DNA from: Sporosarcina psychrophila
GTDB lineage: Bacteria; Bacillota; Bacilli; Bacillales_A; Planococcaceae
Length of the DNA stretch: 64,000 bases
Assembly (NCBI RefSeq): GCF_001590685.1
Contig: NZ_CP014616.1
Location: 1,735,001 to 1,799,000 of the forward strand
Reading direction: 5' to 3'
A program made the translations under genes and the position numbers. Shown piece by piece: positions 16,643 to 61,925 of this stretch (its first letter is position 1; each line of letters starts with the position of its first letter). The notes below the pieces were generated by a model. It was not told the origin of the DNA and ran no database searches. It saw nothing but the letters and a program-made list of their open reading frames with translations.

Positions 16643-17057
16643 ACTGCTATTATTTATCACAAAGCATATGAATTTGTTGATGTTATGAAGTGATAAACAG
16701 TCTGTCATTTTAGCTTCGAAGTTTTAGTTGAAAAATCTTACTATCCAAAGTATGATTTTTAATACCAAGTATCTTTTCCATTAACGGATAATCGAATAAA
16801 ATCGTGTCTTCCAGAATCGGGCCAGATTGCTTAACAACAGAGAACTAAAGAGGGGCAACAAGAGGTTGCATCTTGATGCACTTTTTATTGTTTTAGCCCT
16901 TGTAGCGGGGAGCCCAATACTGTAGACACTTAAAATCGCAGCCATCATTTCTTCGCTATCTTCATCCTCATAACCCTTTCCGCATGTTTCCATTACTCTT
17001 TTAGTGTTTTAAGTTAAAAATACAAGCATCTATATTCTTAAGATACTTTGACTACTA

Positions 17058-17198
17058 CAGATCAAGACATCTCAGTAACCGTATAGAGGTAGTTCAATCT
17101 AAAGCAAACCAAACCAAACCAAACATACTGTACACGAAGCGCCTAGTGTTTTATTCAGTTAGTTACTGGTTGTTTTTGGTCAATCAACACTTGTGATG
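17058..17198 (+). repeat. Dispersed repeat, copy A
   Basis: About 140 bases, closely similar to the reverse complement of 59972-60102. Shared blocks include ATCAAGACAT, CGTATAGAGGT, GTTCAATCTAAAGCAA, TGTACACGAAG and TTACTGGTTGTTTTTGGT. Copy A carries four AAACC units (17106-17123) where copy B has a shorter different sequence. Confidence 0.8.
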
Positions 17199-36465: not shown

Positions 36466-37659
36466 ATGAAAAAAGCTAAATCAAATAGGGGATTAAAATC
36501 ACTTTTGGAACTATTTTTAGTTTCAACACGACTTGGATTGACCTCCTTTGGTGGGCCAACAGCTCATTTGGGGTATTTTCATGAAGAATATGTACGAAGA
36601 AGAAAATGGATGGATGAAAAAAGCTATGCAGATTTAGTTGCTTTAGCTCAGTTCTTACCTGGCCCAGCTAGTAGTCAAGTAGGTATTGGTATAGGTGTTA
36701 TGCGGGCGGGCGTTTTGGGTGGAATTATATCCTTCATTGGGTTCACAATGCCTTCAGTTATTGCACTTATTTTATTTGCCTTGTTGCTCACAGGGGGTGA
36801 CGTCGGAAATGCTGGATGGATACATGGCTTGAAAATTGTAGCAGTGGCGGTAGTTGCGCATGCTATTATCGGAATGGCTAAAAATTTGACACCGGATTTA
36901 ACAAGGAAATCCATTGCTCTATTCGCACTAATAGGTACTCTTTTTTTGCAAACAGCTTTTGCTCAAGTAGGCGTCATTGTAATCGCTGCATTTTTGGGGT
37001 TCATTCTGTTCAAGCAACACAAAGAAAATGATGAAGTGAGTTCGCAATTTCCAATCGCTAAGAGTGTTTCAGTGATCTGTTTACTGCTATTTTTCGGGTT
37101 ACTCTTTTTGTTACCCGTAATCAGGGAAGTAACTGGATCCTACTGGGTAGCTATGTTCGATAGTTTTTATCGGTCAGGTGCTTTAGTTTTTGGTGGCGGT
37201 CATGTCGTCTTACCTTTACTAGAACAGGAATTTGTACCAACTGGATGGATAAGCGAAGAATCATTCTTAGCTGGTTATGGTGCTACACAAGCAGTACCAG
37301 GCCCTTTATTTACATTTGCAGCTTATTTAGGAACGGTAATGAAGGGCTGGCAAGGTGGTTTAGTAGCTACGTTTGCAGTATTCCTACCTGCATTCCTGCT
37401 TATTCTCGGTGCACTCCCTTTTTGGGATAGTTTACGAAGCAATCCTAAAATTAAAGGAGCCATCATGGGCGTAAATGCAGCAGTTATAGGGATATTAATA
37501 GCCGCTTTTTATTTTCCTATTTGGACGAGTTCCATTTTAGCGCCTATTGATTTTGCTTTAGCTGCCCTATTGTTTAGTATGCTTGCCTTTTGGAAGCTTC
37601 CACCTTGGATTATTGTAGTTACAGGAGCTATCGGTGGTTCATTACTGACACTATTATGA
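36466..37659 (+). CDS. chrA: Chromate transporter (ChrA, two-domain)
   Basis: 397 residues of the CHR superfamily, long-chain type with two homologous halves. First half: STRLGLTSFGGPTAHLGYFH, RRRKWMDEKSYADLVALAQF, LPGPASSQVGIGIGVMRAGV. Second half: DSFYRSGALVFGGGHVVLPL, SEESFLAGYGATQAVPGPLF. About ten hydrophobic helices. Exports chromate; alternative anions are possible. Shine-Dalgarno AGAGGAG. Monocistronic with a terminator. Confidence 0.94.
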   Translation: MKKAKSNRGLKSLLELFLVSTRLGLTSFGGPTAHLGYFHEEYVRRRKWMDEKSYADLVALAQFLPGPASSQVGIGIGVMRAGVLGGIISFIGFTMPSVIALILFALLLTGGDVGNAGWIHGLKIVAVAVVAHAIIGMAKNLTPDLTRKSIALFALIGTLFLQTAFAQVGVIVIAAFLGFILFKQHKENDEVSSQFPIAKSVSVICLLLFFGLLFLLPVIREVTGSYWVAMFDSFYRSGALVFGGGHVVLPLLEQEFVPTGWISEESFLAGYGATQAVPGPLFTFAAYLGTVMKGWQGGLVATFAVFLPAFLLILGALPFWDSLRSNPKIKGAIMGVNAAVIGILIAAFYFPIWTSSILAPIDFALAALLFSMLAFWKLPPWIIVVTGAIGGSLLTLL

Positions 37660-37662
37660 AAT

Positions 37663-37709
37663 AAATAACGTCACGCATGGGGTTTTTCCTCAGGTGTGAC
37701 GTTTATTTT
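37663..37709 (+). terminator. Intrinsic terminator of chrA
   Basis: AAATAACGTCAC..GGGG and CCTC..GTGTGACGTTTATTTT form the stem; T-rich 3' arm. Confidence 0.8.
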
Positions 37710-37739
37710 ATTTCTACTATTATTGTCATTTTATCATTT

Positions 37740-37885
37740 CAATCTAACTCGATAGACATTCATCACACAGATGGTGTACAATAAAACCAAGAAAACTAAA
37801 ATGGGTTTTTTAGTTTTCTTGATAGTTGAAGTTGAAAACAAGAAATTTAAATGCATTTAAAGAAGGAATCGAGCATATTAAAAAT
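37740..37885 (+). pseudogene. Decayed duplicate of the tetR promoter and 5' coding end
   Basis: Matches the region before and inside the TetR gene at 39356-39500: TAGACATTCATC.CACAGA.G.TGTA (promoter) and TTGAAAACAAGAA..TAAATGCATTTA (start of coding). The reading frame is destroyed by a stop (TTTAA) after ten codons. It carries a hairpin, AAGAAAACTAAAA with TTTTTTAGTTTTCTT, that the intact copy lacks. This suggests the cassette or its promoter was duplicated once. Confidence 0.65.
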
Positions 37886-37950
37886 TAGGGAAGAAGATTT
37901 ATCTCCTACATTTGCATCAGTTATGAATTTAGAGTGTGAAAAAGGTTGGT

Positions 37951-38105
37951 ATATATGTTGAACACATGAATACCTAAATAAACTGAATGAAGGCGCCACC
38001 TCGAGTTCAATGGAATTTTTATTTCGACGAAAGCTATATTGCTAAGATAATGAATGTGAGCATTAGAAGAGATCGAATCGTTAATAATGCTGTGACAGGC
38101 AATAC
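37951..38105. repeat. Partial member of the TTGAAC...GCGAAGGCGCC repeat family
   Basis: Starts ATATGTTGAACACATGAATA then CCTAAATAAAC and GAAGGCGCC, like the starts at about 42188 and 46010. The left end is the inverse of the sequence at 38776-38803 (GTATTCATTTGTTCAACATA), so the two may be terminal inverted repeats of one element. Confidence 0.5.
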
Positions 38106-38184
38106 AGAATACTATATACGTTGAATTAAAGAATCCCATTGAATCTACTATGGCGCTCAATAAGGAGAGAGTTGTAATTCGGGG

Positions 38185-38380
38185 GGCACTGAAAAAGTAC
38201 GATATCCTTCAATCCCGTTGATTTCCGTTCCGAGCGGACGCTTTCCGCGGGCACGGCTTCAGCCTCCTCGTCACTGCGTTCCTGCGGGGTCTTCAGCTCG
38301 CGCTGTTCCCGCTGGAGTCGCCGCTCTTCACTACAATCAACTAGTTCTTACTATATAAAAGAACTTTTTCAGTTTCCTCT
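38185..38380. mobile_element. MITE-like GC-rich interspersed element with target-site duplication
   Basis: Bounded by the 10-bp direct repeat TAATTCGGGG (38175-38184 and 38381-38390). Left end GGCACTGAAAAAGT and right end ACTTTTTCAGTTTCC are imperfect terminal inverted repeats; subterminal GTTGAT and ATCAAC also pair. The core, TTTCCGTTCCGAGCGGACGC onward, is the GC-rich repeat seen between genes of many Bacillaceae and Planococcaceae (from memory). The core runs CTTTCCGCGGGCACGGCTTC, TGCGGGGTCTTCAGCTCGCG, CTGTTCCCGCTGGAGTCGCC. No transposase inside. Direct repeat copy 2 at about 41549 shows the uninterrupted target. Confidence 0.8.
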
Positions 38381-38589
38381 TAATTCGGGGTGTGGATAGT
38401 AGAACGCTTGGCGCTTTGGGGATGCCTTTGCCACGCCTGCGCTAGGTTGTTCATTATCGAGAGAAATGTGATTTTGAGATGTATATGCCGAGATTGTAAG
38501 GTGATTATTTTTGCTACTAATTCTATTCAAGAAAGACACACTTCAGGTTGCAGATTTCATCGCAGATAATGAAATGCTCTTTCTCACAT

Positions 38590-38692
38590 AGACCATCCAG
38601 CGAAGGCGCGACTTCGTGGTAGCCGGAGCGATAAGACTGAAAGCGGTCTTCTTTCTGGCTTATCGCGGGAGGCATCCACAAAGCGTCCAAGC
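38590..38692. repeat. Structured repeat, copy 1
   Basis: Nested stems: GGCGC (38605-38609) with GCGTC (38683-38687), GCC (38622-38624) with GGC (38671-38673), GCGATAAG (38628-38635) with CTTATCGC (38659-38666). Internal loop GGA/GGGA. The apical part contains GAAAG/CTTTC. See copies 2 and 3 for compensatory changes. Confidence 0.75.
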
Positions 38693-38876
38693 GGTATTGG
38701 GGGAATTCTAATTAGTTCTAAGTATTGGGACTTTTTCAGTGGCCTTCCAAATGCCCATGTAAAGCGTATACGCCGTATTCATTTGTTCAACATATATAGA
38801 TGTTAAAGTGTTAGACGGCCATTATTAGTTGTATATTCTTATATAAATCTAGTCTTTAAATATGAAAGGAAAAATG

Positions 38877-39326
38877 ATGACAGTAATTATAAATGAAGTT
38901 ACAAAAGACAATATAAACGATATTCTAAAACTGCGTATTAATGAAGAACAACAGTCTTTTATTGAAACGCCGCAACAATGTTTAGATGAGGCAAAGGTAT
39001 GCAGCAACTTTCAACCAGTAGGGCTTTATTGGGAAAAGAATTTAGTTGGTTTTGCTATGTATGGATTTTTTCCTGATGAAGGAATAAATGGACGAGTGTG
39101 GCTGGATCGGTTTTTAATCGATTCTAAATATCAAGGTCTTGGATTAGGAAGCATTATGTTAAGCGCATTAATTCAACGGTTAGAACAAGAATATAGTTGC
39201 AATGAAATCTATTTAAGCATCATTGCCGATAATCAAGGAGCACTTCACTTGTATCAGAAATTTGGCTTTAAGTTCAATGGTGAAGTGGATAGTAATAATG
39301 AAAAGCTAATGGTGAAAAGTTTATAA
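38877..39326 (+). CDS. GNAT-family N-acetyltransferase (diamine/BltD-like)
   Basis: 150 residues. GNAT fold with acetyl-CoA-binding motif A: RVWLDRFLIDSKYQGLGLGS (Q-x-x-G-x-G), followed by NEIYLSIIADNQGALHLYQK (motif B). The opening resembles spermidine/spermine acetyltransferases of the BltD group. The ATG at 38877 is preferred (AAAGGA 6 bases before). BltD-type genes are often next to a multidrug efflux gene, and here a TetR regulator and a MATE pump follow. Confidence 0.85.
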   Translation: MTVIINEVTKDNINDILKLRINEEQQSFIETPQQCLDEAKVCSNFQPVGLYWEKNLVGFAMYGFFPDEGINGRVWLDRFLIDSKYQGLGLGSIMLSALIQRLEQEYSCNEIYLSIIADNQGALHLYQKFGFKFNGEVDSNNEKLMVKSL

Positions 39327-39368
39327 TGTTTTTTGGTTTATCGTTTAGAACTTGACCTACTTAACTCT

Positions 39369-39399
39369 GTAGACATTCATCTCACAGAGGTTGTATAAT
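39369..39399 (+). promoter_or_regulatory. Promoter of the TetR/MATE unit
   Basis: TAGACA, 18 bases, then TATAAT, about 50 bases before the TTG start of the TetR gene. The same sequence with TACAAT is found in the decayed copy at about 37752. Confidence 0.65.
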
Positions 39400-39449
39400 G
39401 AAACTGGTAAAACTACAAACGGATTATTAGTTTCTGGGGAGGTCGAAAA

Positions 39450-40004
39450 TTGAAAACAAGAATCAGAAATGCATTTATTGAAGAAACGCGAAATAATGGC
39501 ATTAAGTTCACGATGGATGATTTGGCAAAGCGTCTTGGAATTAGCAAGCGGACGTTATATGAAAATTTTTCATCTAAGGTAGATATCCTTGACTCAATTA
39601 TAGATATGACGCTCGTTGAGTTCGATGAACAAACACGGCGTATAATTGACAATCCAGAACTTACGCTGTTAGAAAAAATCCGTAAGGCGATTGTCGTCAT
39701 GCCAAAATACAATGAGTTTTACGATCTCCGGATTCTGAACCAATTAAAACGGACTTACCCTGTACAGTGGGAACGGGTGAACCGTGAGTTGCATCAGTGG
39801 GATGATTTAAAGGGTCTTCTTGAAGAAGGGATCCGAACAGGTATTATTGTGGATCGAAATATCGATCTGCTGATGAAATTGATTATTGAAGCTTCGAATG
39901 CAACGCTCGACCGACAATTTTTTTTAGAACATAGTATTTCTGTTACGGAAGCGTACGGGGCGATTGTGGATGTGTTATTGACAGGTATGGTGAAGGAAAA
40001 ATAA
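39450..40004 (+). CDS. TetR-family transcriptional regulator
   Basis: 184 residues, TTG start after GGGGAGG. N-terminal helix-turn-helix: TMDDLAKRLGISKRTLYENF followed by SSKVDILDSII. The C-terminal ligand domain (about 60-184) is unclassified. It lies 115 bases before the MATE pump gene and probably represses it and itself, with derepression by a pump substrate. Confidence 0.92.
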   Translation: MKTRIRNAFIEETRNNGIKFTMDDLAKRLGISKRTLYENFSSKVDILDSIIDMTLVEFDEQTRRIIDNPELTLLEKIRKAIVVMPKYNEFYDLRILNQLKRTYPVQWERVNRELHQWDDLKGLLEEGIRTGIIVDRNIDLLMKLIIEASNATLDRQFFLEHSISVTEAYGAIVDVLLTGMVKEK

Positions 40005-40119
40005 GGTGAGCTTACTGGCATTTTAACTGCCAGTCTATTTTTTTGACTGACGAAACTATAAAAACTAAAATCGTTTCCGTGTTTTATGGAACGACAAAAG
40101 ATAAGGAATTGAATTGGTA

Positions 40120-41448
40120 ATGAAAAAGGAACAAGTAGTAAATCGCTTAGATACGGAATCTGTTGGGAAATCTTTTTTAAGGTATTTAATCCCGTCGATG
40201 ATTGGGATGCTACTGATGGCTGTCAATATTGTGATCGACGGAATTATGGTAGGCAATCGCTTAGGTCCAGTCGCCCTTGCCGGGGTAGGGATTGCAGCGC
40301 CAGTTTATACGGTTTTTGTCGCGATGTCACTGTGGATTGGAATTGGTGCAGCGACCCGTTATTCCGCAATGATGGGAGCTAAACGACCTGATAAGGCGCG
40401 TGTTATTTTTTCACATGCCATTGTCTCTATATTTATTTTAACGCTGATTGTCGGGCTTACTGCCTTTGTTTTTAGGACGGAACTTGCGTATTTATTGGGC
40501 GCGAATGCCGACACATTTCAGTACACTGCAGGTTATATGAAGGTCATGTTGCTATTTGGATTCATCTTCACTGTTGAAAATGCATTCAGTATTTTGGTGC
40601 GAAATGACGGTGGACCGAACTTATCAATGATTGCACTTGTTGCTACGGCAGTCGTCAATATCGGATTGAATTATGTGTTTTTATTCATACTTGATTATGG
40701 TGTAGAGGGTGCTGCAGCGGCAACGGTCATTGGTGCATTTGTGGGGCTTGTCATATTGAGCACGCATTTTTTCAGAAAGAAAAGTAATTTGCGTTTTGTT
40801 CGCTTTAAGTTCAATCGAAAGCTTTTTCTATTAATATTAGTGATTGGATTTCCGAGTTTTCTTGCGGAAGTTGGATTTTCGGTCTTTACAATCTCGCATA
40901 ATATTACGTTTGAATACCTCGCTGGAACCGCAGGCGTGTCTGCATTTACGATATTGAATTATGTTCACAGTGTTATGTTGCTGTTATTTTTAGGTATGGG
41001 TGCGGCGATTCAACCGCTGATTAGCTATTACCGTGGGGCAGGTAGCGAAATCAAGATGAAAAAGACTGTTCGTATGGCTATTGGGACAGCACTCGGGGCC
41101 GGCATCTTCTTTCTGCTTGTCGGCCAATTTGCAGCCGCTCCAATTGCAAGTTTGTTCGGCGATTTTCCAGAAGAAGTAATGAAAATTGCGGTTCCGGGTA
41201 TTAAACTGTTCTTTATCGCCTATCTTTTTATGGGCACAAACTTTGTCATGATGACGTATTATCAATCCATCGGACAGATCCGAATGGCAACGTGGATTAC
41301 TGCAGCAAGGGAAATTGTTGTTTTGCTAATCTTGCTCGCCATCATGCCACGACTATTTGGATTAACAGGTGTCTGGCTCGCTATACCAATATCGGAATTC
41401 ATCGTTCTGATGACAATTTATTATTACCACAAAAAATGGAACAATTGA
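40120..41448 (+). CDS. MATE-family multidrug efflux transporter
   Basis: 442 residues and twelve predicted helices in two six-helix halves, MepA/NorM type. First half: FLRYLIPSMIGMLLMAVNIV, GNRLGPVALAGVGIAAPVY. Second half: GFPSFLAEVGFSVFTISHNI, GMGAAIQPLISYYRGAG. Na+ or H+ driven drug export is expected. The ATG at 40120 is used; an in-frame TTG two codons earlier is less likely. It belongs to a GNAT-TetR-MATE resistance-like cassette bracketed by long direct repeats. Confidence 0.93.
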   Translation: MKKEQVVNRLDTESVGKSFLRYLIPSMIGMLLMAVNIVIDGIMVGNRLGPVALAGVGIAAPVYTVFVAMSLWIGIGAATRYSAMMGAKRPDKARVIFSHAIVSIFILTLIVGLTAFVFRTELAYLLGANADTFQYTAGYMKVMLLFGFIFTVENAFSILVRNDGGPNLSMIALVATAVVNIGLNYVFLFILDYGVEGAAAATVIGAFVGLVILSTHFFRKKSNLRFVRFKFNRKLFLLILVIGFPSFLAEVGFSVFTISHNITFEYLAGTAGVSAFTILNYVHSVMLLLFLGMGAAIQPLISYYRGAGSEIKMKKTVRMAIGTALGAGIFFLLVGQFAAAPIASLFGDFPEEVMKIAVPGIKLFFIAYLFMGTNFVMMTYYQSIGQIRMATWITAAREIVVLLILLAIMPRLFGLTGVWLAIPISEFIVLMTIYYYHKKWNN

Positions 41449-41479
41449 GATGTGACTTTATAAGGAATGTTGTAAGAGA

Positions 41480-41999
41480 AATAACCTATATATGTTGAAT
41501 TAAAGAATCCTATTGAATCTGCCGTGGCGCTCAATAATAAGAGAGGTGTAATTCGGGGTGTGGATTGTAGAACGCTTAGCGCTTCGGCGACCCCTTTGCC
41601 GCGCCTGCGCTAGGATATTCATTATCGAGAGAAATATGATTTTGAGATGTATATGCCAAGATTATAATGTGTTTATTTTTTGCTACTAATTCTATTCAAG
41701 AAAGACACATTCCAGATTGCAGTTTTCATCACAGCTAATGAAATGCTCTTTCTCACATAGACCATCCAGCGCAGGCGCATCTTCGTGGTAGCCGAAGCGA
41801 TAAGACTAAGGAGGGATGCAGTTCAATCCCTCCCAAGTGGTTTCCTTTCTGGCTTATCGCGGGAGGCATCCACAAAGCGTCGAAGCGGTATTAGTGGTAA
41901 TACTAATTCATTCCAATTACTAGGGATTTTTCAGTGGCCTCCTAAAATCCCTTGTAAAGCGCATACGCCGTATTCATTTGTTTAACATATCTAGAAGGT
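41480..41999 (+). repeat. Long direct repeat, copy 2 (uninterrupted)
   Basis: See copy 1 at 38107. At 41549 it reads GTAATTCGGGGTGTGGAT without the 196-bp element, so it preserves the empty target site. It carries a 28-base apical extension in its structured repeat that copy 1 lacks. Confidence 0.85.
41760..41886. repeat. Structured repeat, copy 2
   Basis: Stems GGCGC (41774-41778)/GCGTC (41877-41881), GCC (41791-41793)/GGC (41865-41867), GCGATAAG (41797-41804)/CTTATCGC (41853-41860), plus an extra perfect apical hairpin GGAGGGAT (41810-41817)/ATCCCTCC (41826-41833). Internal loop GAA/GGGA. Confidence 0.75.
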
Positions 42000-42016
42000 A
42001 TTGGGGGATAAATATG

Positions 42017-42060
42017 AAAAAAGTAGTGCAGACTAAGTGATTGGTCTGTACTACTTTTTT
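42017..42060. terminator. Intrinsic terminator
   Basis: AAAAAAGTAGTGCAGAC (42017-42033) pairs with GTCTGTACTACTTTTTT (42044-42060), one mismatch. It separates the repeat region from the nag operon. Confidence 0.85.
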
Positions 42061-42136
42061 GTTGTAAGAAGAACAATTTCTTTAGGGATATTTTTTCTAG
42101 TGAGTACATATAATTTATTTTATTAGATTATAAACT

Positions 42137-42154
42137 GGTATAGACAACTATACC
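42137..42154 (+). promoter_or_regulatory. Probable NagR operator before nagA
   Basis: GGTATAG, ACAA, CTATACC: a perfect 7+7 inverted repeat about 145 bases before the nagA start. GntR/HutC-type sites (dre) have this form, and a NagR-type regulator is encoded third in the operon. Confidence 0.65.
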
Positions 42155-42187
42155 GATTGAGTGTATAGTGAAAATTAAGAATACTAG

Positions 42188-42238
42188 ACATGTTGAACAA
42201 ATAATACCTATATAAACCAGCGAAGGCGCTGTAAGCGG
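42188..42238. repeat. Partial member of the TTGAAC...GCGAAGGCGC repeat family
   Basis: ATGTTGAACAAATAATACCT, ATATAAACCAGCGAAGGCGC: matches the 5' parts at 37951 and 46010, then stops being similar. It lies in the nagA leader. Confidence 0.5.
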
Positions 42239-42298
42239 CGGATTTGAATGGAATTTATTTCTATTTTTACAGGATATTCAAAAGGGATGAGGAATTTG

Positions 42299-43465
42299 AT
42301 GAAGACATTGTTGATTTCAAATATTACAATTGCCAATGCAACAAAGGATGGTATATCGGGAGACATTTATATAGAAAATGGCGAAATTATAGAAATCGCT
42401 ACTTCTATAAATAAAGTTGCAGATATACGAATCGATGCGGCGGGTAAGGATTGGATTGTTGTGCCTGGTTTTATTGACATTCACATTCACGGTTCTTCAG
42501 GTTTTGATGTAATGGATGCGACGCCGGAAGCATTAAATGGTTTGGCGAGCGCGCTTCCCCGTGAAGGGACGACGAGTTTTTTAGCAACAACAATGACGCA
42601 GTCGGATGAAGCGATAGCAGGGGCGTTACGCAATGCGGGTTTATTCAATGCGGATGAAAGGCAAGCTGAAATGTTGGGGGTTCATTTGGAAGGGCCTTTT
42701 ATTTCAGCTATACGAGCGGGTGCACAACCGGTTGAGCATATTACAACACCGTCTTTTGCCCTTTTTGAACAATGGCAAGAGCTGAGTGGTAACCGCATTA
42801 AAATTGTAACTGTTGCTCCTGAGGTGGAAAACGGTCTTGCTTTCATTGAAAAGGTAACGACGAGTGGTGTGATTGCATCTATTGGACATACGGATGCAAC
42901 ATCGGATATCGTTCGTAATGCGGTTGAGGAGGGTGCTACTCATGTGACTCATTTATATAACCAAATGAGCCCGTTTCATCATAGGGAACCAGGGGTTGTT
43001 GGAGCTGCTTTTTTAGAGGATTCACTTCTCGTTGAAATTATCGTCGATTGCATTCATAGTCATCCGAAATCGGTTGAACTCGCTTATCGTCAAAAGACTT
43101 CCAATCGAATTATTCTTATTACGGATGCAATGCGTGCGAAAGGGCTTCCACCTGGCATTTATGATTTAGGAGGCCAAGATGTAGAAGTATCACACAAAGA
43201 TGCGCGGCTTCGCGATGGAACGCTTGCAGGAAGCATATTAACGATGGAACAAGCGGCGCAGAATATGAAGGCTATTACAAATTGTTCATTAGCTGAATTA
43301 GTTGCAATGACCTCAACAAATGCTGCCGAACAACTTGGCCTATCCAATAAAGGCAGGATTGAGCCTGGAAAAGATGCGGATCTTACCATCATCGATGGGG
43401 AGTGGAATGTCCAGATGACTATTTGTAGGGGGGAAATTGCTTATACTAAGGAGGTAATGGGATGA
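42299..43465 (+). CDS. nagA: N-acetylglucosamine-6-phosphate deacetylase
   Basis: 388 residues, amidohydrolase fold. Removes acetate from GlcNAc-6-P to give GlcN-6-P. Metal motif GFIDIHIHGSSGFDVMD, HLEGPF, IGHTDATSD (His), THLYNQMSPFHHREPGVVGA, ITDAMRAKGLPPG (catalytic Asp). The ATG at 42299 (MKTLLIS) is chosen over the frame start at 42248; TGAGGAA precedes it. It overlaps nagB by 4 bases. Confidence 0.94.
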   Translation: MKTLLISNITIANATKDGISGDIYIENGEIIEIATSINKVADIRIDAAGKDWIVVPGFIDIHIHGSSGFDVMDATPEALNGLASALPREGTTSFLATTMTQSDEAIAGALRNAGLFNADERQAEMLGVHLEGPFISAIRAGAQPVEHITTPSFALFEQWQELSGNRIKIVTVAPEVENGLAFIEKVTTSGVIASIGHTDATSDIVRNAVEEGATHVTHLYNQMSPFHHREPGVVGAAFLEDSLLVEIIVDCIHSHPKSVELAYRQKTSNRIILITDAMRAKGLPPGIYDLGGQDVEVSHKDARLRDGTLAGSILTMEQAAQNMKAITNCSLAELVAMTSTNAAEQLGLSNKGRIEPGKDADLTIIDGEWNVQMTICRGEIAYTKEVMG

Positions 43466-44190
43466 AGGTAGTCATATGTGCTAATTATGATGAAGTAAGC
43501 GTAAAGGCCGCACAATTGGTAGAAGCACAAATTCTTGGAAATGATCACTCGGTGCTTGGACTTGCAACAGGATCAACGCCACTAGGGCTTTATGAACGAT
43601 TAGTTGAAGGTGTTAAATTACGTGGGATATCGTATAAAAATGTGTGCACGATTAATCTAGATGAATACCTAGGTCTAGATAAAGGGCATCCGGAAAGTTA
43701 CCGCACATTTATGACTGAAAACTTATTTGATAAGATTGACATTGTAATTGGAAATACGTATATTCCGGATGGGACATCTGATTCAGCAGAAGAATGTCTG
43801 CGTTATGAACAAGTAATTGATAGCGTAGGGCCGATTGATCTGCAGGTATTGGGGATAGGAAGAAATGGGCATATCGGCTTTAACGAACCGGGAACGGATT
43901 CAAACAGTCTGACACATGTCGTTGAACTTGTTGCATCTACCCGAGAAAGTAACGCACGCTTCTTTACTTCCATTGATGAAGTTCCAACACATGCGATTAC
44001 AACGGGTATCAAATCGATATTAAAAAGTAAGGAAATTATTTTACTGGCATCCGGAAAAGATAAAGCAGAAGCTGTGAGAACATTATTAAATAAAGATGTG
44101 ACTGAAAGTTTTCCAGCATCAATTTTATGGAATCACGATAATGTTACACTTATTGTTGATAGGGATGCATATGAACTGGTTAAATCATAA
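43462..44190 (+). CDS. nagB: Glucosamine-6-phosphate deaminase
   Basis: 242 residues, typical of the short Bacillus NagB. Converts GlcN-6-P to fructose-6-P and ammonia. Motifs: LGLATGSTPLGLYERL, CTINLDEYLGL (catalytic Asp), LQVLGIGRNGHIGFNEPGTD (catalytic His). The usual ...GxDGHIAFNEPG reads RNGHIGFNEPG here. ATGA overlap with nagA gives translational coupling. Confidence 0.95.
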   Translation: MKVVICANYDEVSVKAAQLVEAQILGNDHSVLGLATGSTPLGLYERLVEGVKLRGISYKNVCTINLDEYLGLDKGHPESYRTFMTENLFDKIDIVIGNTYIPDGTSDSAEECLRYEQVIDSVGPIDLQVLGIGRNGHIGFNEPGTDSNSLTHVVELVASTRESNARFFTSIDEVPTHAITTGIKSILKSKEIILLASGKDKAEAVRTLLNKDVTESFPASILWNHDNVTLIVDRDAYELVKS

Positions 44191-44204
44191 GGGAAGTGAG
44201 TATT

Positions 44205-44927
44205 ATGTTAGATAAACAGTCACCGATACCCATGTACGTCCAGATCGAGGACTATTTGAAAAATCAAATTCTGCAAGGGGATTTTGTAATTGGAGAGGCA
44301 ATCCCTTCCGAACGTGAACTGACGGATACGTTTGACGTAAGTCGCATGACTGTCCGCCAATCCATAACGAATCTAGTAAATGAGGGGCTCCTTTATCGTG
44401 AAAAGGGGCGCGGAACATATGTGGCGACACCCAAGATTGAACAGCCTCTTAGTGGTCTTACAAGCTTTACGGAAGATATGCTGTCACGTGGGATGAAACC
44501 TAGTAACAAACTTATTAGTTTTGAGAAAATGATACCTGAAATAGATATTATGCATGAGTTACAGTTGGCTAAAGATGAAGAAGTATTCGTCGTTAAGCGA
44601 ATTAGGTATGCGGACGACAAACCGATGGCGATCGAAAGGTCATATCTTCCTGTTAAGCTCGTCCCAAATCTTGAATTGAATGACATAGAAGGATCACTGT
44701 ATTCGTTTATAGAGAAGGATAAACGGCTAATAATTAGCCATGCCTCGCAACGCATGGAAGCTGTGTTAGTGAAAAAGGAAGATGCAGAGTTCCTTCAAAT
44801 TTTTATGCCTTCAGCAGTTTTGTTGATAGAACGAATCAGTTATTTAACGAACGATGTTCCGATTGAAATTGTTCGAAGTACATATCGGGCAGATCGTTAT
44901 AAATTTATCAGCGAGATTCGGAGATGA
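44205..44927 (+). CDS. nagR: GntR/HutC-family regulator of the nag operon (NagR/YvoA-like)
   Basis: 240 residues. Winged helix (IPMYVQIEDYLKNQILQGDF, IPSERELTDTFDVSRMTVRQ) and a UTRA effector domain (about 85-235; LTSFTEDMLSRGMKPSNKLI, IRYADDKPMAIERSYLP). In Bacillus the homologue represses nag genes and is released by GlcN-6-P or GlcNAc-6-P. The ATG at 44205 follows a GGGAAGTGAG site. Likely binds the 42137-42154 inverted repeat. Confidence 0.93.
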   Translation: MLDKQSPIPMYVQIEDYLKNQILQGDFVIGEAIPSERELTDTFDVSRMTVRQSITNLVNEGLLYREKGRGTYVATPKIEQPLSGLTSFTEDMLSRGMKPSNKLISFEKMIPEIDIMHELQLAKDEEVFVVKRIRYADDKPMAIERSYLPVKLVPNLELNDIEGSLYSFIEKDKRLIISHASQRMEAVLVKKEDAEFLQIFMPSAVLLIERISYLTNDVPIEIVRSTYRADRYKFISEIRR

Positions 44928-44931
44928 TTGA

Positions 44932-45654
44932 ATGAATGCGTATTTCAAGGAAATCGAATCATTGATGAAAAAAGTTATTCGAGAAGAACAGCGATCTGTT
45001 GAAAAGATTGCAGCAGAGATAATGAAACGCCTTTCGCGTGGTGGTATTGTTCAGTTATTCGGCTCAGGTCATTCTCACTTAATAGCGGAGGAGCCGTTTT
45101 TCCGTGCGGGCGGTTTAGTACCAGTACGACCAATTATTGTCGAGACTTTGATGCTTCATAATGGGGCTTCACAGGCATCTACGAATGAAAAAGACCCTGA
45201 ATTTACCCAAACATTTGCGGGTCAGCTAGACATTCGTTCTGAAGATGTAGTCATTATTATTTCAACTTCTGGACGAAATGTGGTACCAATAGATGTGGCG
45301 TATATTGCAAAAGAGTCCGGGGCTTATGTTGTTTCTCTCCAGTCTCTTTACTACAATGCGTCTGAACAGCCATCTAAACACCATTCAGGAAATAGACTTG
45401 AAGATGTTGCGGAAGCAGTTTTGAATACGCATGTAACGGTTGGGGATGGGCTTCTGCTATCGGAGGGAACACCTTATGCACCGGCTTCTGGCGTCATTGG
45501 GAATATGCTTCTTCATGCGACATTCAGTCGTGTGATTGGTATGATGATTGAAAGTGGGATAGAACCTCCAATATTTAAAAGCGCAAATTTGGATGGAAGC
45601 TCAGCACATAATGAGCAAATGATTGCTACTTATGGCAAGCGAATTAAGTTTTAA
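44932..45654 (+). CDS. SIS-domain protein (UPF0309-like sugar isomerase)
   Basis: 240 residues. Phosphosugar-binding SIS fold: GGIVQLFGSGHSHLIAEEPF, VVIIISTSGRNVVPIDVAYI, and a C-terminal SGVIGNMLLHATFSRVIGMM. Matches the UPF0309 group of uncharacterised sugar isomerase/etherase-like proteins. It lies inside the nag operon, 4 bases after nagR, so it may act on an amino-sugar phosphate such as a muropeptide-derived product (inference). Confidence 0.88.
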   Translation: MNAYFKEIESLMKKVIREEQRSVEKIAAEIMKRLSRGGIVQLFGSGHSHLIAEEPFFRAGGLVPVRPIIVETLMLHNGASQASTNEKDPEFTQTFAGQLDIRSEDVVIIISTSGRNVVPIDVAYIAKESGAYVVSLQSLYYNASEQPSKHHSGNRLEDVAEAVLNTHVTVGDGLLLSEGTPYAPASGVIGNMLLHATFSRVIGMMIESGIEPPIFKSANLDGSSAHNEQMIATYGKRIKF

Positions 45655-45691
45655 CTTGATTCGACTAATCTATTAAAAGGGAGAGTTTAAA

Positions 45692-45958
45692 ATGATTAAG
45701 AAAAATTACAAAGTTACTAGCAACGAGGGCCTTCACGCCCGTCCATCATCCGTATTAGTTTCAGCGGTGACACCATTTACGTCAGATGTGAAACTTGCAT
45801 ACATGGAAAAGACAGTGAACTTGAAATCGATTATGGGTGTTATGTCACTGGGAATTTCAGCTGGAGCCGACATTAAAATCATCGCTGATGGTGAGGATGA
45901 AGAAGCATTAATGGCTAAAGTGGATGAAGTAATAAAATCAGAAGGAATCGGTGAGTGA
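45692..45958 (+). CDS. HPr-family phosphocarrier protein
   Basis: 88 residues, the full HPr length. His 15 in NEGLHARPSS is the PEP-dependent phosphorylation site. Ser 46 in NLKSIMGVMSLG is the HPr kinase site. Both are present, so it could take part in PTS transfer and, with CcpA, in catabolite control. The sequence is divergent from canonical PtsH in the middle (SDVKLAYMEKTVNLKS). Last gene of the nag operon. No PTS permease or enzyme I is nearby, so it may be a dedicated HPr for a GlcNAc PTS elsewhere. Confidence 0.9.
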   Translation: MIKKNYKVTSNEGLHARPSSVLVSAVTPFTSDVKLAYMEKTVNLKSIMGVMSLGISAGADIKIIADGEDEEALMAKVDEVIKSEGIGE

Positions 45959-46009
45959 TTTCAACGATTTAAGGCATTTCACTTTTGCATGCTTTTAGCG
46001 TTTTGAATG

Positions 46010-46145
46010 CATCTATATATTGAACTACTAAAAACTATATAAACTAAGCGAAGGCGCCTGACAAGGGGTAGCCGAAGCCCTAAGACTGATGGCGAAGCTG
46101 TCTGGCTTAGGGCGGGAGGCATCCCAAGCGCCGAAGCGAAGTCAA
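46010..46145. repeat. Structured repeat, copy 3
   Basis: Stems GGCGC (46053-46057)/GCGCC (46128-46132), GCC (46071-46073)/GGC (46118-46120), GCCCTAAG (46077-46084)/CTTAGGGC (46106-46113). Relative to copies 1 and 2 the third stem has three compensated pairs (GAT..ATC becomes CCT..AGG), and the outer stem gains a Watson-Crick pair where copies 1 and 2 have G-U. Internal loop GAA/GGGA conserved. Confidence 0.8.
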
Positions 46146-46197
46146 TGGGATTATTTATTTCATCAAATATAAAACAAAGATGTTTCAAGTCCTTGTG

Positions 46198-46236
46198 AAA
46201 GCGTCACCGAGCTCTAGTCGGGTGACGCTTTACTGT
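46198..46236 (+). terminator. Intrinsic terminator of the nag operon
   Basis: AAAGCGTCACC (46198-46208) and GGTGACGCTTT (46221-46231), loop of 12, then ACTGTTTT. Confidence 0.8.
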
Positions 46237-46341
46237 TTTACGGGATAGCTCATCGACTTTTTTTACCTAATTGACCAATTATCAATGTTAAAACAGAAAT
46301 CGCTGTGATATAGTGGGAAATGATGAAAGAAGGTGTGCGTA

Positions 46342-47313
46342 TTGAGAAAGAAATACGGAAGACTCAGGAAAAAAGAAAATGTTATCGTCTTTCCAGGAAC
46401 ATTTGAAAAGCTTGTTGAAAATGGCCATGTAGCCGTCGAACAGGAGAACTATGAGTTAGCGGTGGAAGCATTTGACCAAGCTATTGTATATGAACCTGAC
46501 AATCCGGAATTTCTGGGACCATACGCGGTTGCCCTTTATGAGACAAAAGACTTTCAACGTGCAAAAGAAATTGCAGCAAGGCTCCTTCATAGCGGAACCG
46601 CCGATTACGTCGATGCAATGGAGCTGTATTTGACAATTAGCATTCAACTGCAGGAGTACGATGAAGTTGAAATGACAATTGATGCGCTAATTGATGAAGG
46701 AATCGTTCCGCCTGATATGCTGAACAAATTCAATTATCTGCGGGAATTGAATGGTCGTTTGTCTGACCGCTATGCACAGGACGAGCCCAGCTATCGGATG
46801 GAATTATTCACACTAGACGAATTCATGAAGATGGATGCTTTGGCACAACAGTATGCACTGGCTTCACTTGAAGGTAGTGATTTAACTGATTTAGTCCCTT
46901 TACTTGCGATAATTGTAGCGCGGGACGATGTGGCACCATTAGCAATTACGTTCGCATTAACGCTACTGCATCAGACAGGGCACTCTGATGAACTTACAGT
47001 GCGGAAATTCGGCTGGGAGAAGCGTATTGTTCCAGCAGCTATGACATTACCTGGGCAAGATGATTTAACGAAACAAGTTCTTGAAGAAGTGGATCGTCGG
47101 TTACTGCAGGATCCATCTAGATTAGAAATGGCTCAAGGTCTCATTGAGAAATTTGCAATTACTGCTTTCCCTTTCGGCTGGGGGACTCATCAAGCAGAAG
47201 AAGTCGCAACAGCCTATGTAAACTACATAGAAAGTCTGTTTTCAGGTGAGCAGTTACCCGAGACAGCACTGAACTTACTTATTCAACAGATTGACAACGA
47301 TTCGGACCTTTAA
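46342..47313 (+). CDS. ysoA: TPR-repeat protein (YsoA-like)
   Basis: 323 residues. Tetratricopeptide-like helices are visible in the first 130 residues (NGHVAVEQENYELAVEAFDQ, PEFLGPYAVALYETKDFQRA). The remainder is helical and acidic. In Bacillus the homologous gene ysoA also stands directly before tig. Function unknown; probably a scaffold. The TTG at 46342 is preferred: the AGAAGGTG Shine-Dalgarno (46329-46336) would be inside the coding sequence if the GTG at 46333 were used. Confidence 0.85.
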   Translation: MRKKYGRLRKKENVIVFPGTFEKLVENGHVAVEQENYELAVEAFDQAIVYEPDNPEFLGPYAVALYETKDFQRAKEIAARLLHSGTADYVDAMELYLTISIQLQEYDEVEMTIDALIDEGIVPPDMLNKFNYLRELNGRLSDRYAQDEPSYRMELFTLDEFMKMDALAQQYALASLEGSDLTDLVPLLAIIVARDDVAPLAITFALTLLHQTGHSDELTVRKFGWEKRIVPAAMTLPGQDDLTKQVLEEVDRRLLQDPSRLEMAQGLIEKFAITAFPFGWGTHQAEEVATAYVNYIESLFSGEQLPETALNLLIQQIDNDSDL

Positions 47314-59926: not shown

Positions 59927-59971
59927 AAAAAGCTTAGTCAATTCAAATACGAATTCGATAGTTGTGTTTGT

Positions 59972-60102
59972 TTTCACATGTGTTGATTAACCAAAAACAA
60001 CCAGTAAATAACTGAATCAAACACTATGCCCTTCGTGTACAGTTACCTCTGGATTGCTTTAGATTGAACGACCTCTATACGATTACCGAAATGTCTTGAT
60101 GT
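59972..60102 (-). repeat. Dispersed repeat, copy B (inverted relative to copy A)
   Basis: Its reverse complement matches 17058-17198 over about 130 bases, with the main difference in the centre, where copy A has AAACC units. Smaller related blocks with GTACACGAAG or GTACAAAG followed by TGCTA recur at about 60188 and 60386. Confidence 0.8.
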
Positions 60103-60540
60103 GTAGGAATTCGACTCCGTCGCATTCCTGCACATTTTTTCCGATAATCGTATGGTGCTTATTCATCTATCGCTATCCAAATGCATAAGTACACGAAGTG
60201 CTAAAACTTTTCGGGACGAAAGAATAGCGGGGCTTCTTATCTGGATAGTAGCCGCCAAAAATACAATTTTGGCGACTGAAGCCTTCTCCATAGACTTGTC
60301 TTTTTTAGTTAAGGAAGAGTCACTTTCTTATAGTCCATCGCATGATAAGGTACATACTCTTTACTAATAGTAAGCAAGGAACACATTGTACAAAGTGCTA
60401 GAGTGCCCGAAATTGTATCTTCGGGCACTTATAACCTATATAAAAAGTCATCTATTCTTTTTTCTAAAGTAGCTGTATTTTTCACTTGAACGTTGTAGGA
60501 ACGCGACAGGCAACTATTCGTAACAGGATTACTGAAAAGG

Positions 60541-60577
60541 GTGTGGCTAGGAATGACGAAGTCATTTCTAGCCACAC
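60541..60577. repeat. 17-bp near-perfect hairpin without T run
   Basis: GTGTGGCTAGGAATGAC (60541-60557), loop GAA, GTCATTTCTAGCCACAC (60561-60577), one G-T pair. Very stable, tight loop. Function unknown. Confidence 0.7.
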
Positions 60578-60728
60578 TTGCTCCTCGGTAAAGTTGTCAT
60601 GAATAGTTCGTCAAAAGCGGACCGGAAATGATTCAGTGAAAATGGGGTTTTTCAAGCCTTTCTTACCTGTTCTTTATGCAAGAAAATGGTTAATCAACAG
60701 AAGTGGTTTTTTTTAATAATAAAGACAA

Positions 60729-61649: not shown

Positions 61650-61925
61650 TGCATATGGATGCGATGATTGGGATAGTACGTGAATGGATTAGACTAAAGA
61701 GAGGGTTCGAGTGCTGAAAGGACCTGTCGATTATTTACCGAATGTAACCCATGAGCAGTTTCCGTGAAAGTGTGTTCAAAAAGAAAAACATTTTTGAGCG
61801 TAGTAGCGGAAGCCGGTTTGAAGCCGTTATCGAAGTTTGAGGTGCACAGCTCTTTTGTGTGCACGAATAAAGGTGGTACCGCGAACAGCTCCTTCGTCCT
61901 TTAAGGCGATAGGAGTTTTTTTGTA
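61650..61925 (+). ncRNA. T-box riboswitch (tRNA-Val sensing) of valS
   Basis: The T-box sequence AATAAAGGTGGTACCGCG lies at about 61866-61883 and pairs with the CCA end of uncharged tRNA. Its antiterminator bulge competes with the terminator CTCCTTCGTCCTTT..AAGGCGATAGGAG followed by seven T (about 61890-61923). The upstream part from about 61650 should contain stem I with a Val specifier codon, which I did not locate with certainty. Uncharged tRNA-Val would favour readthrough into valS. Confidence 0.9.

Follow-up and report, generated by a model that had tools for sequence, protein, structure and literature searches.

The stretch of DNA analysed here, referred to as the window in the following, comprises 64,000 nucleotides of Sporosarcina psychrophila (assembly GCF_001590685.1, contig NZ_CP014616.1, positions 1,735,001 to 1,799,000 of the forward strand). 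It harbours three copies of a structured repeat, the second and third of which enclose a row of genes composed of nagA, nagB, a GntR-type regulator, a sugar isomerase domain protein and HPr (42248-45958). A preceding examination of the letters alone (the sequence-only reading) had attributed a shared nested fold to these copies, and covariance model R1 indeed places all three cores on the plus strand where that reading had located them. Likewise, the description of the nested stems, of the internal loop GRA/GGGA and of the additional perfect hairpin in copy 2 is correct, while the 8-bp stem, alleged to change at three positions per side, actually changes at two (GCGATAAG versus GCCCTAAG). Folded individually as RNA and compared with 200 shuffles each, copy 3 is matched by none and copy 2 by two of the shuffled sequences, while copy 1 folds weakly on its own, 13 of 200 shuffles folding as well. 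The earlier statement that no known family can be named is borne out by comparison with Rfam, as no family covers the cores at either gathering or relaxed thresholds; a match to tsr24 inside element 1 (38232-38326, minus strand; 30 bits versus a gathering threshold of 50, E 0.0011) is sub-threshold. Gathering-level matches lie elsewhere. The window contains a Bacillaceae-1 RNA and a T-box leader (1175-1241 and 61655-61904), and in L345 a Bacillaceae-1 match and a core are separated by about 340 bp.

Table 1. Cores of the structured repeat and the elements carrying them within the window (strands: +, plus; -, minus)
Feature	Position	Strand	Remarks
Structured core, copy 1	38599-38693	+	R1 97.2 bits, E 8.9e-29
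Structured core, copy 2	41768-41887	+	R1 78.6 bits, E 9.6e-23; extra hairpin 41810-41833 in apical loop
Structured core, copy 3	46047-46138	+	R1 95.2 bits, E 4e-28
Second core of copy 1, degraded with internal deletion	38405-38443	-	R1 15.5 bits, E 0.031, weak alone
Degraded second core of copy 2	41580-41611	-	R1 15.5 bits, E 0.032, weak alone
Long-form element, copy 1	38112-38799		Inverted ends CTATATACGTTGAA and TTCAACATATATAG; intact core +, degraded core -; repeat families D1-D3, D5, D8
Long-form element, copy 2	41486-41994		Absent at same site in relatives G151, G157, G175
Short-form element, copy 3	46011-46172	+	Decayed ends ATCTATATATTGAA and TTCATCAAATATAA; same site filled in G157, G151
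Fourth (short) element remnant	42184-42271	+	Core hairpin deleted; borders by eye; fuller copy at this place in G157

The core has a length of 94 nt and a structure of 28 pairs arranged in stacked stems, its consensus reading AGCGAAGGCGCC-(about 6)-GGGGTAGCCGAAGCnATAAGACTG-hairpin-GGCTTATnGCGGGAGGCATCCCC-AAGCGCCGnAGCG. Within a set of 59 diverse copies, chosen by a motif pattern in which TAAG was fixed, TTA..GC was nearly fixed and two variable stem positions were left free, 96.7% of 1651 cells pair, and both sides have changed in 10 pairs and 94 cells, compared to at most 6 pairs and 21 cells in controls with slid partners. From a second genus (g7) we obtained 44 distinct copies which stood outside model building but whose alignment was fitted to the structure of the model. 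Here, 97.2% of 1116 cells pair, and changes on both sides are observed in 21 of the 28 pairs and in 141 cells (slid controls: at most 6 and 16). In L273 and L275, variation extends even to the stems GGGG/CCCC and GCC/GGC, which occur there as GGGC/GCCC, GAC/GTC and AGC/GCT. Covariation, as expected of a structured RNA, thus goes beyond the controls, which consisted of slid partners and shuffles without correction for the relatedness of the copies. The internal loops, in turn, mostly stay open. Their UA/AU columns pair in just 5 and 6 of 281 copies. G and A oppose each other at columns 27/72 (271 of 280 copies), 29/69 and 38/60 (270 of 281 each), 4/91 (253 of 267) and 6/89 (199 of 277). Two variable loop positions, 5/90 and 40/58, pair in some copies (46 of 218 and 86 of 281, respectively), and each of the other nine loop positions tested does so in at most 9 of about 280 copies.

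Which of the two strands folds was addressed with 419 hidden Markov model matches, of which 334 remained after removal of duplicates and 281 contained no more than 12 gaps. On a tree of these 281 copies, one-sided changes of a Watson-Crick pair result in G-U in 147 and in A-C in 76 cases (p 2e-6). Counted by cells, G-U outnumbers A-C by 309 to 94, a ratio of 3.3, while slid partners give ratios of 0.55 to 2.0; hence, base content alone can tilt the proportion either way but not to 3.3. In the second genus the same contrast amounts to 19 versus 9 cells, which are small numbers. The transposon ends of 50 elements, used as a control, contain 39 G-T and 33 A-C cells and accordingly show no strand bias like that of the core. 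Unpaired columns do not exhibit any C-to-T excess on the plus strand (55 C>T and 114 G>A, not normalised for base content). In addition, the lower RNA folding energy is calculated for the plus strand in 234 of 277 distinct cores and for the minus strand in 40. From the G-U excess and the folding energies it follows that the plus strand folds by itself, either as RNA or as single-stranded DNA. The short element L037 even folds end to end, with an energy of -65.7 kcal/mol which is not reached by any of 200 shuffles. The sequence-only reading had proposed a conserved single-strand structure with compensatory changes, which is now strongly supported by the covariation within both the 59 copies and the second genus, by the strand test and by the mostly open loops. 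The fold of the core is under selection, and the 94 nt of one strand likely fold as RNA, any cellular function of which is putative.

About 16-25 bases outside the core, inverted ends CTATATATGTTGAA and TTCAACATATATAG are observed. The pattern of these terminal inverted repeats (TIRs) occurs at 330 sites compared to 66 for the reversed control, and a spanning TIR pair within 800 bp is present in 31 of 50 copies of the S. psychrophila genome that have at least 850 bp on both sides, but the reversed pattern in none of them. If the ends are sought in all genomes within 80 bases and with up to 4 mismatches, both are found in 50 and one in 103 of 324 copies. Ten short elements of the S. psychrophila genome measure 161-166 bp and long forms reach up to about 690 bp, so that these elements correspond to what is termed a bacterial miniature inverted-repeat transposable element (MITE), a short non-coding element with TIRs. 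Where cores lie in close pairs in this genome, 16 of the 21 pairs point apart. A short element nested within a long one reveals its target: the empty site reads ...GCTACTAATTC... and the filled one ...ATACTA[TATAAATTG...CAACATATA]TAATTAT, hence TA has been duplicated. A TA target with target site duplication is thereby evidenced for one event by descent; TA is the target used by IS630. The long-form element of copy 2 is missing at the same site in all three relatives read (Table 1), whose flanks are too diverged to show an exact duplication there. G157 and G151 contain the element of copy 3, which is internally deleted in G175 and not seen in G172. Several elements, such as the remnant listed in Table 1, lack the core through deletion, which by eye took place between short repeats (GGC, for example). 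In L172, two TIRs at a distance of 1.9 kb were discarded as a pair, since they belong by eye to two separate elements with host genes in between. The conserved single-strand structure which had been postulated for this DNA holds, while an independent RNA gene family does not, the copies appearing as cores of IS630-type miniature transposons.

Some further features of these elements and of their surroundings should be recorded. The hairpin inserted into the apical loop of copy 2 (GGAGGGATGCAGTTCAATCCCTCC) has close relatives both inside and outside the core in L361. In the S. psychrophila genome 13 of 110 matches span at least 108 nt, 11 of them 119-120 nt. Another insert, starting with AACCGAACAACGAAGAGTTCGG, splits the core either after GGGGTAGCC or apically in different genomes (L145, L172, L073), indicating recurrent nested insertion. 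The first element is flanked by a duplicated stretch (37745-37868 and 39362-39486, 78-80% alike) ahead of a gene which by eye is TetR-like; this suggests local duplication or gene loss around the insertion. Finally, a stretch of 778 bp (59928-60705) is missing in G157 and G175 and present in G151; parts of it recur inverted at 17055-17196, and its longest frame comprises 71 amino acids (frames of at least 50 amino acids considered).

In the S. psychrophila genome 110 covariance-model matches were obtained among 150 candidates scored. A search of the order, performed with strict filters and at most 16 candidates scored per genome, yielded matches at E 1e-6 or better in at least 102 of 261 genomes and in 6 of 19 genera. 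Among the matches listed, all genomes belong to the family of the window, the Planococcaceae, with 43 among the 68 of its genus. Two of the genomes are particularly rich. G122 contains 120 matches, many of them spaced to fit a 401-bp unit, read out in L332, with cores of alternating orientation, and G118 contains 90, many of which are arranged in tandem with spacings of 216 to 263 bp. Plasmid and phage collections did not yield any match to positions 46014-46172 of the window. Pattern matches in bins of Caulobacterales and Cyclobacteriaceae lack the fold, seem by eye to be due to chance and were rejected. Within the S. psychrophila genome the cores are sparse between 2.0 and 3.0 Mb (10 of 110 matches in 1 Mb), a region perhaps situated around the terminus. 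We would also like to mention that contigs named Arthrobacter beigongshangensis REN13 (L089, L100, L135, L153) carry the repeat at 37-43% G+C, which suggests that this assembly is mislabelled or contains contaminating DNA of a Sporosarcina relative.

Candidate transposase partners occur in relatives. In L357 (genome G195) an IS630-family gene, split over separate frames, is situated between TATATAAGTTGAA and TTCAACTTATATA, with 1145 bp end to end, and its catalytic piece scores 134.5 bits with the IS630 model NF033545 (cut-off 100). L361 (G155) contains a DDE_3 gene (135.5 bits) with an internal stop between TATATATGTTGAA and TTCAACATATATA as well as a core in the same stretch. The catalytic piece in L358 (G161) scores 145 with NF033545 (cut-off 100), accompanied by only one recognisable end. 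The MITE thus has its ends in common with an element of the autonomous type, as those of L361 are the same and those of L357 differ by one mismatch per end. Beyond the 13-nt repeat, 8 and 10 of 14 positions match between the ends of the MITE and L357, compared to 6 and 8 if the ends are swapped, a similarity of sequence which is supportive but modest.

Gene context was derived from a plain open-frame caller, and copies inside open frames (2 of 49 in the S. psychrophila genome, 14 of 132 in others) were excluded from the orientation counts. An mRNA element of fixed orientation was rejected, since 36 sense copies face 35 of the opposite orientation in the other genomes. There, 38 copies lie between convergent and 9 between divergent genes, while the corresponding numbers for the S. 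psychrophila genome are 8 and 10. The sequence-only reading had named stem positions that vary without pairing as an observation that would refute it. Such variation does occur in many single copies, 225 changes on the tree breaking and 233 keeping a pair. These numbers indicate that selection is partial and that settled copies decay. In a comparison of branches, based on parsimony on a tree from the same columns, the ratio of kept to broken pairs is 77:56 on internal and 156:169 on terminal branches (p 0.06), and that of changes at paired to unpaired sites 160:310 and 344:382, respectively (p 5e-6), paired sites thus changing less internally. For 20 of 51 copies of the S. psychrophila genome an ortholog-like match was identified; summed over this list, which mixes true orthologs with repeats sharing element sequence, 339 of 3690 positions differ in the core and 2136 of 19935 in the flanks. 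The core of copy 3 differs at 5 of 92 positions in G157, with 6.0% in the flanks, and at 16 of 91 in G151, with 4.9% in the flanks. A divergence of fixed copies similar to that of the flanks, together with the contrast between branches, speaks for selection on the element that spreads rather than for a function of each copy in its host.

Our interpretation is that the copies in the window are probably the cores of a family of MITEs which bear ends of the IS630 type and are likely mobilised in trans by IS630 transposases from elsewhere. One strand of their 94-nt core is predicted to adopt the fold as RNA. The transposase, encoded elsewhere and acting in trans, would cut at TATATGTTGAA and join the element into TA. 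Selection would preserve the fold in those copies which go on to spread and would relax once a copy has settled. As the least certain step, the fold might act in cis whenever a host transcript reads through a sense copy, in that the stable rod might protect or insulate this transcript and thus render insertions tolerable. We hence regard the family as an IS630-type MITE whose RNA passenger is likely to act in transcripts that read through it; both the involvement of RNA and the supposed benefit are inferred.

A number of observations speak against this interpretation. With regard to the carrier, 19 of 50 copies of the S. psychrophila genome lack a spanning TIR pair at the setting given above, and neither end is found within 80 bases in 171 of the 324 copies of all genomes. 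The nested TA insertion is seen in several long copies and in contigs of another genome and therefore constitutes a single event by descent, whose border is moreover blurred by the TA-rich ends. The core also occurs in tandem arrays outside a MITE setting, and by eye no IS630-type ends were recognised within 110 bases of the 15 copies read in G118, from which it follows that the core has a history outside the MITE. With regard to the enzyme, the transposase of an IS630-derived MITE is usually, albeit not necessarily, encoded by the same genome, yet no DDE_3 transposase match was obtained in that of S. psychrophila. Such matches are rare, 11 in all in 5 of 68 genomes of the genus, and both transposase genes located between ends of this kind (L357, L361) are broken. 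With regard to the RNA, the lean towards sense in the S. psychrophila genome (++ 21, -- 8) is inconsistent with the other genomes (++ 36, -- 35), the G-U to A-C counts by gene orientation (22:14 for ++ and 9:8 for --) do not discriminate, and a promoter and terminator scan of 37600-46500 did not reveal any excess. Finally, the divergence of ortholog-like copies roughly keeps pace with that of the sequences flanking them. In a more far-reaching reading, which we regard as quite improbable, the core would be a mobile RNA module switching carriers between MITEs and tandem arrays, and its nascent RNA would act as a tether drawing the foreign-made transposase back to its own DNA, making it a DNA-transposon counterpart of Alu.

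It seems unlikely that the core is instead a host-useful structured RNA, i.e. a small RNA or an element of 3' untranslated regions, which became attached to a MITE and is maintained for the benefit of the host. Conservation of the fold across genera, also where no MITE ends are seen, is in line with such a role, but the distribution is patchy even within the genus (43 of 68 genomes), gene orientation is unsteady and the core of copy 3 departs from its counterpart in G151 at 16 of 91 positions, with flanks differing by 4.9%. The one-strand signature would also fit a core folding as single-stranded DNA for transposition or replication in the manner of IS200/IS605, repetitive extragenic palindromes (REPs) or integron attC sites; DNA, too, forms stable G-A pairs and GCGAAGC-like loops. 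We nevertheless hold this to be rather improbable: the S. psychrophila genome, to which this search was confined, contains no Y1 transposase match (PF01797), for which reason a system composed of REPs and REP-associated tyrosine transposases (RAYTs) was rejected as well. The combination of paired ends with a TA duplication instead suits a DDE enzyme, and there is no bias towards the leading or lagging strand, with 60 of 110 copies (44 of 72 isolated ones, p 0.08) on one of them, assuming that the contig starts at the origin.

Pairing might also be kept without selection if, in a near-palindrome, one arm were copied onto the other by template switching. The 58 double Watson-Crick changes which fall on single branches with no sampled intermediate are compatible with this process, as is the partial pairing of the variable loop positions 5/90 (46 of 218) and 40/58 (86 of 281). 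It would, however, erase the internal loops too, whereas for none of the other nine loop positions tested does the number of paired copies exceed 9 of about 280, and it predicts no excess of G-U over A-C; we therefore judge it to be very unlikely.

In the literature we did not find any description of such repeats in Sporosarcina, Planococcus or the Planococcaceae; subscription journals were mostly uncovered and a printed account may exist. The repeat has no name in Rfam, yet it is present in about 4 in 10 genomes searched in the order. Its hundreds of natural variants from six genera, with most stem pairs doubly changed and the loops conserved, make it possible to ask why a non-coding transposon keeps an RNA-like fold. 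If the core does fold as RNA, the element would be a small transposon which brings an RNA structure along and maintains it.

Among known repeats, bcr1 of the Bacillus cereus group comes closest in size, copy number and structure, being described as dispersed structured repeats of about 150 bp with traits of mobile elements and 11-130 copies per genome (PMC6542083, PMC2267715), the mobility of bcr elements being tied to a TTTAT motif and a recombination-like mechanism (PMC6542083). This likeness is one of description, and in contrast to the TTTAT motif of bcr elements the Sporosarcina family has a TA target and IS630-type ends. RUP, by comparison, is linked to an IS630 relative. Bacterial MITEs, among them RUP, NEMIS, ERIC, Nezha, EFAR and bcr1, are described as non-coding elements with TIRs of 15-30 bp which are often situated beside genes and are thought to be moved by TIR-recognising transposases (PMC3733652). 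Unlike RUP-type MITEs, the present family possesses a separate 94-nt core with strand-biased covariation which is found elsewhere in tandem arrays. To our knowledge, selection for a one-strand fold has seldom been demonstrated for bacterial MITEs. The core consensus of the Sporosarcina type resembles GTAG-tagged REPs in that GTAG starts its inner hairpin. Yet, another genus has CTAG, CGAG or TGAG in place of this tag, and the paired ends, the duplicated TA and the lack of a Y1 transposase in the S. psychrophila genome differ from GTAG REP/RAYT systems. What distinguishes this family is that its covariation is strand-biased across genera and that its core changes from a MITE setting to tandem arrays.

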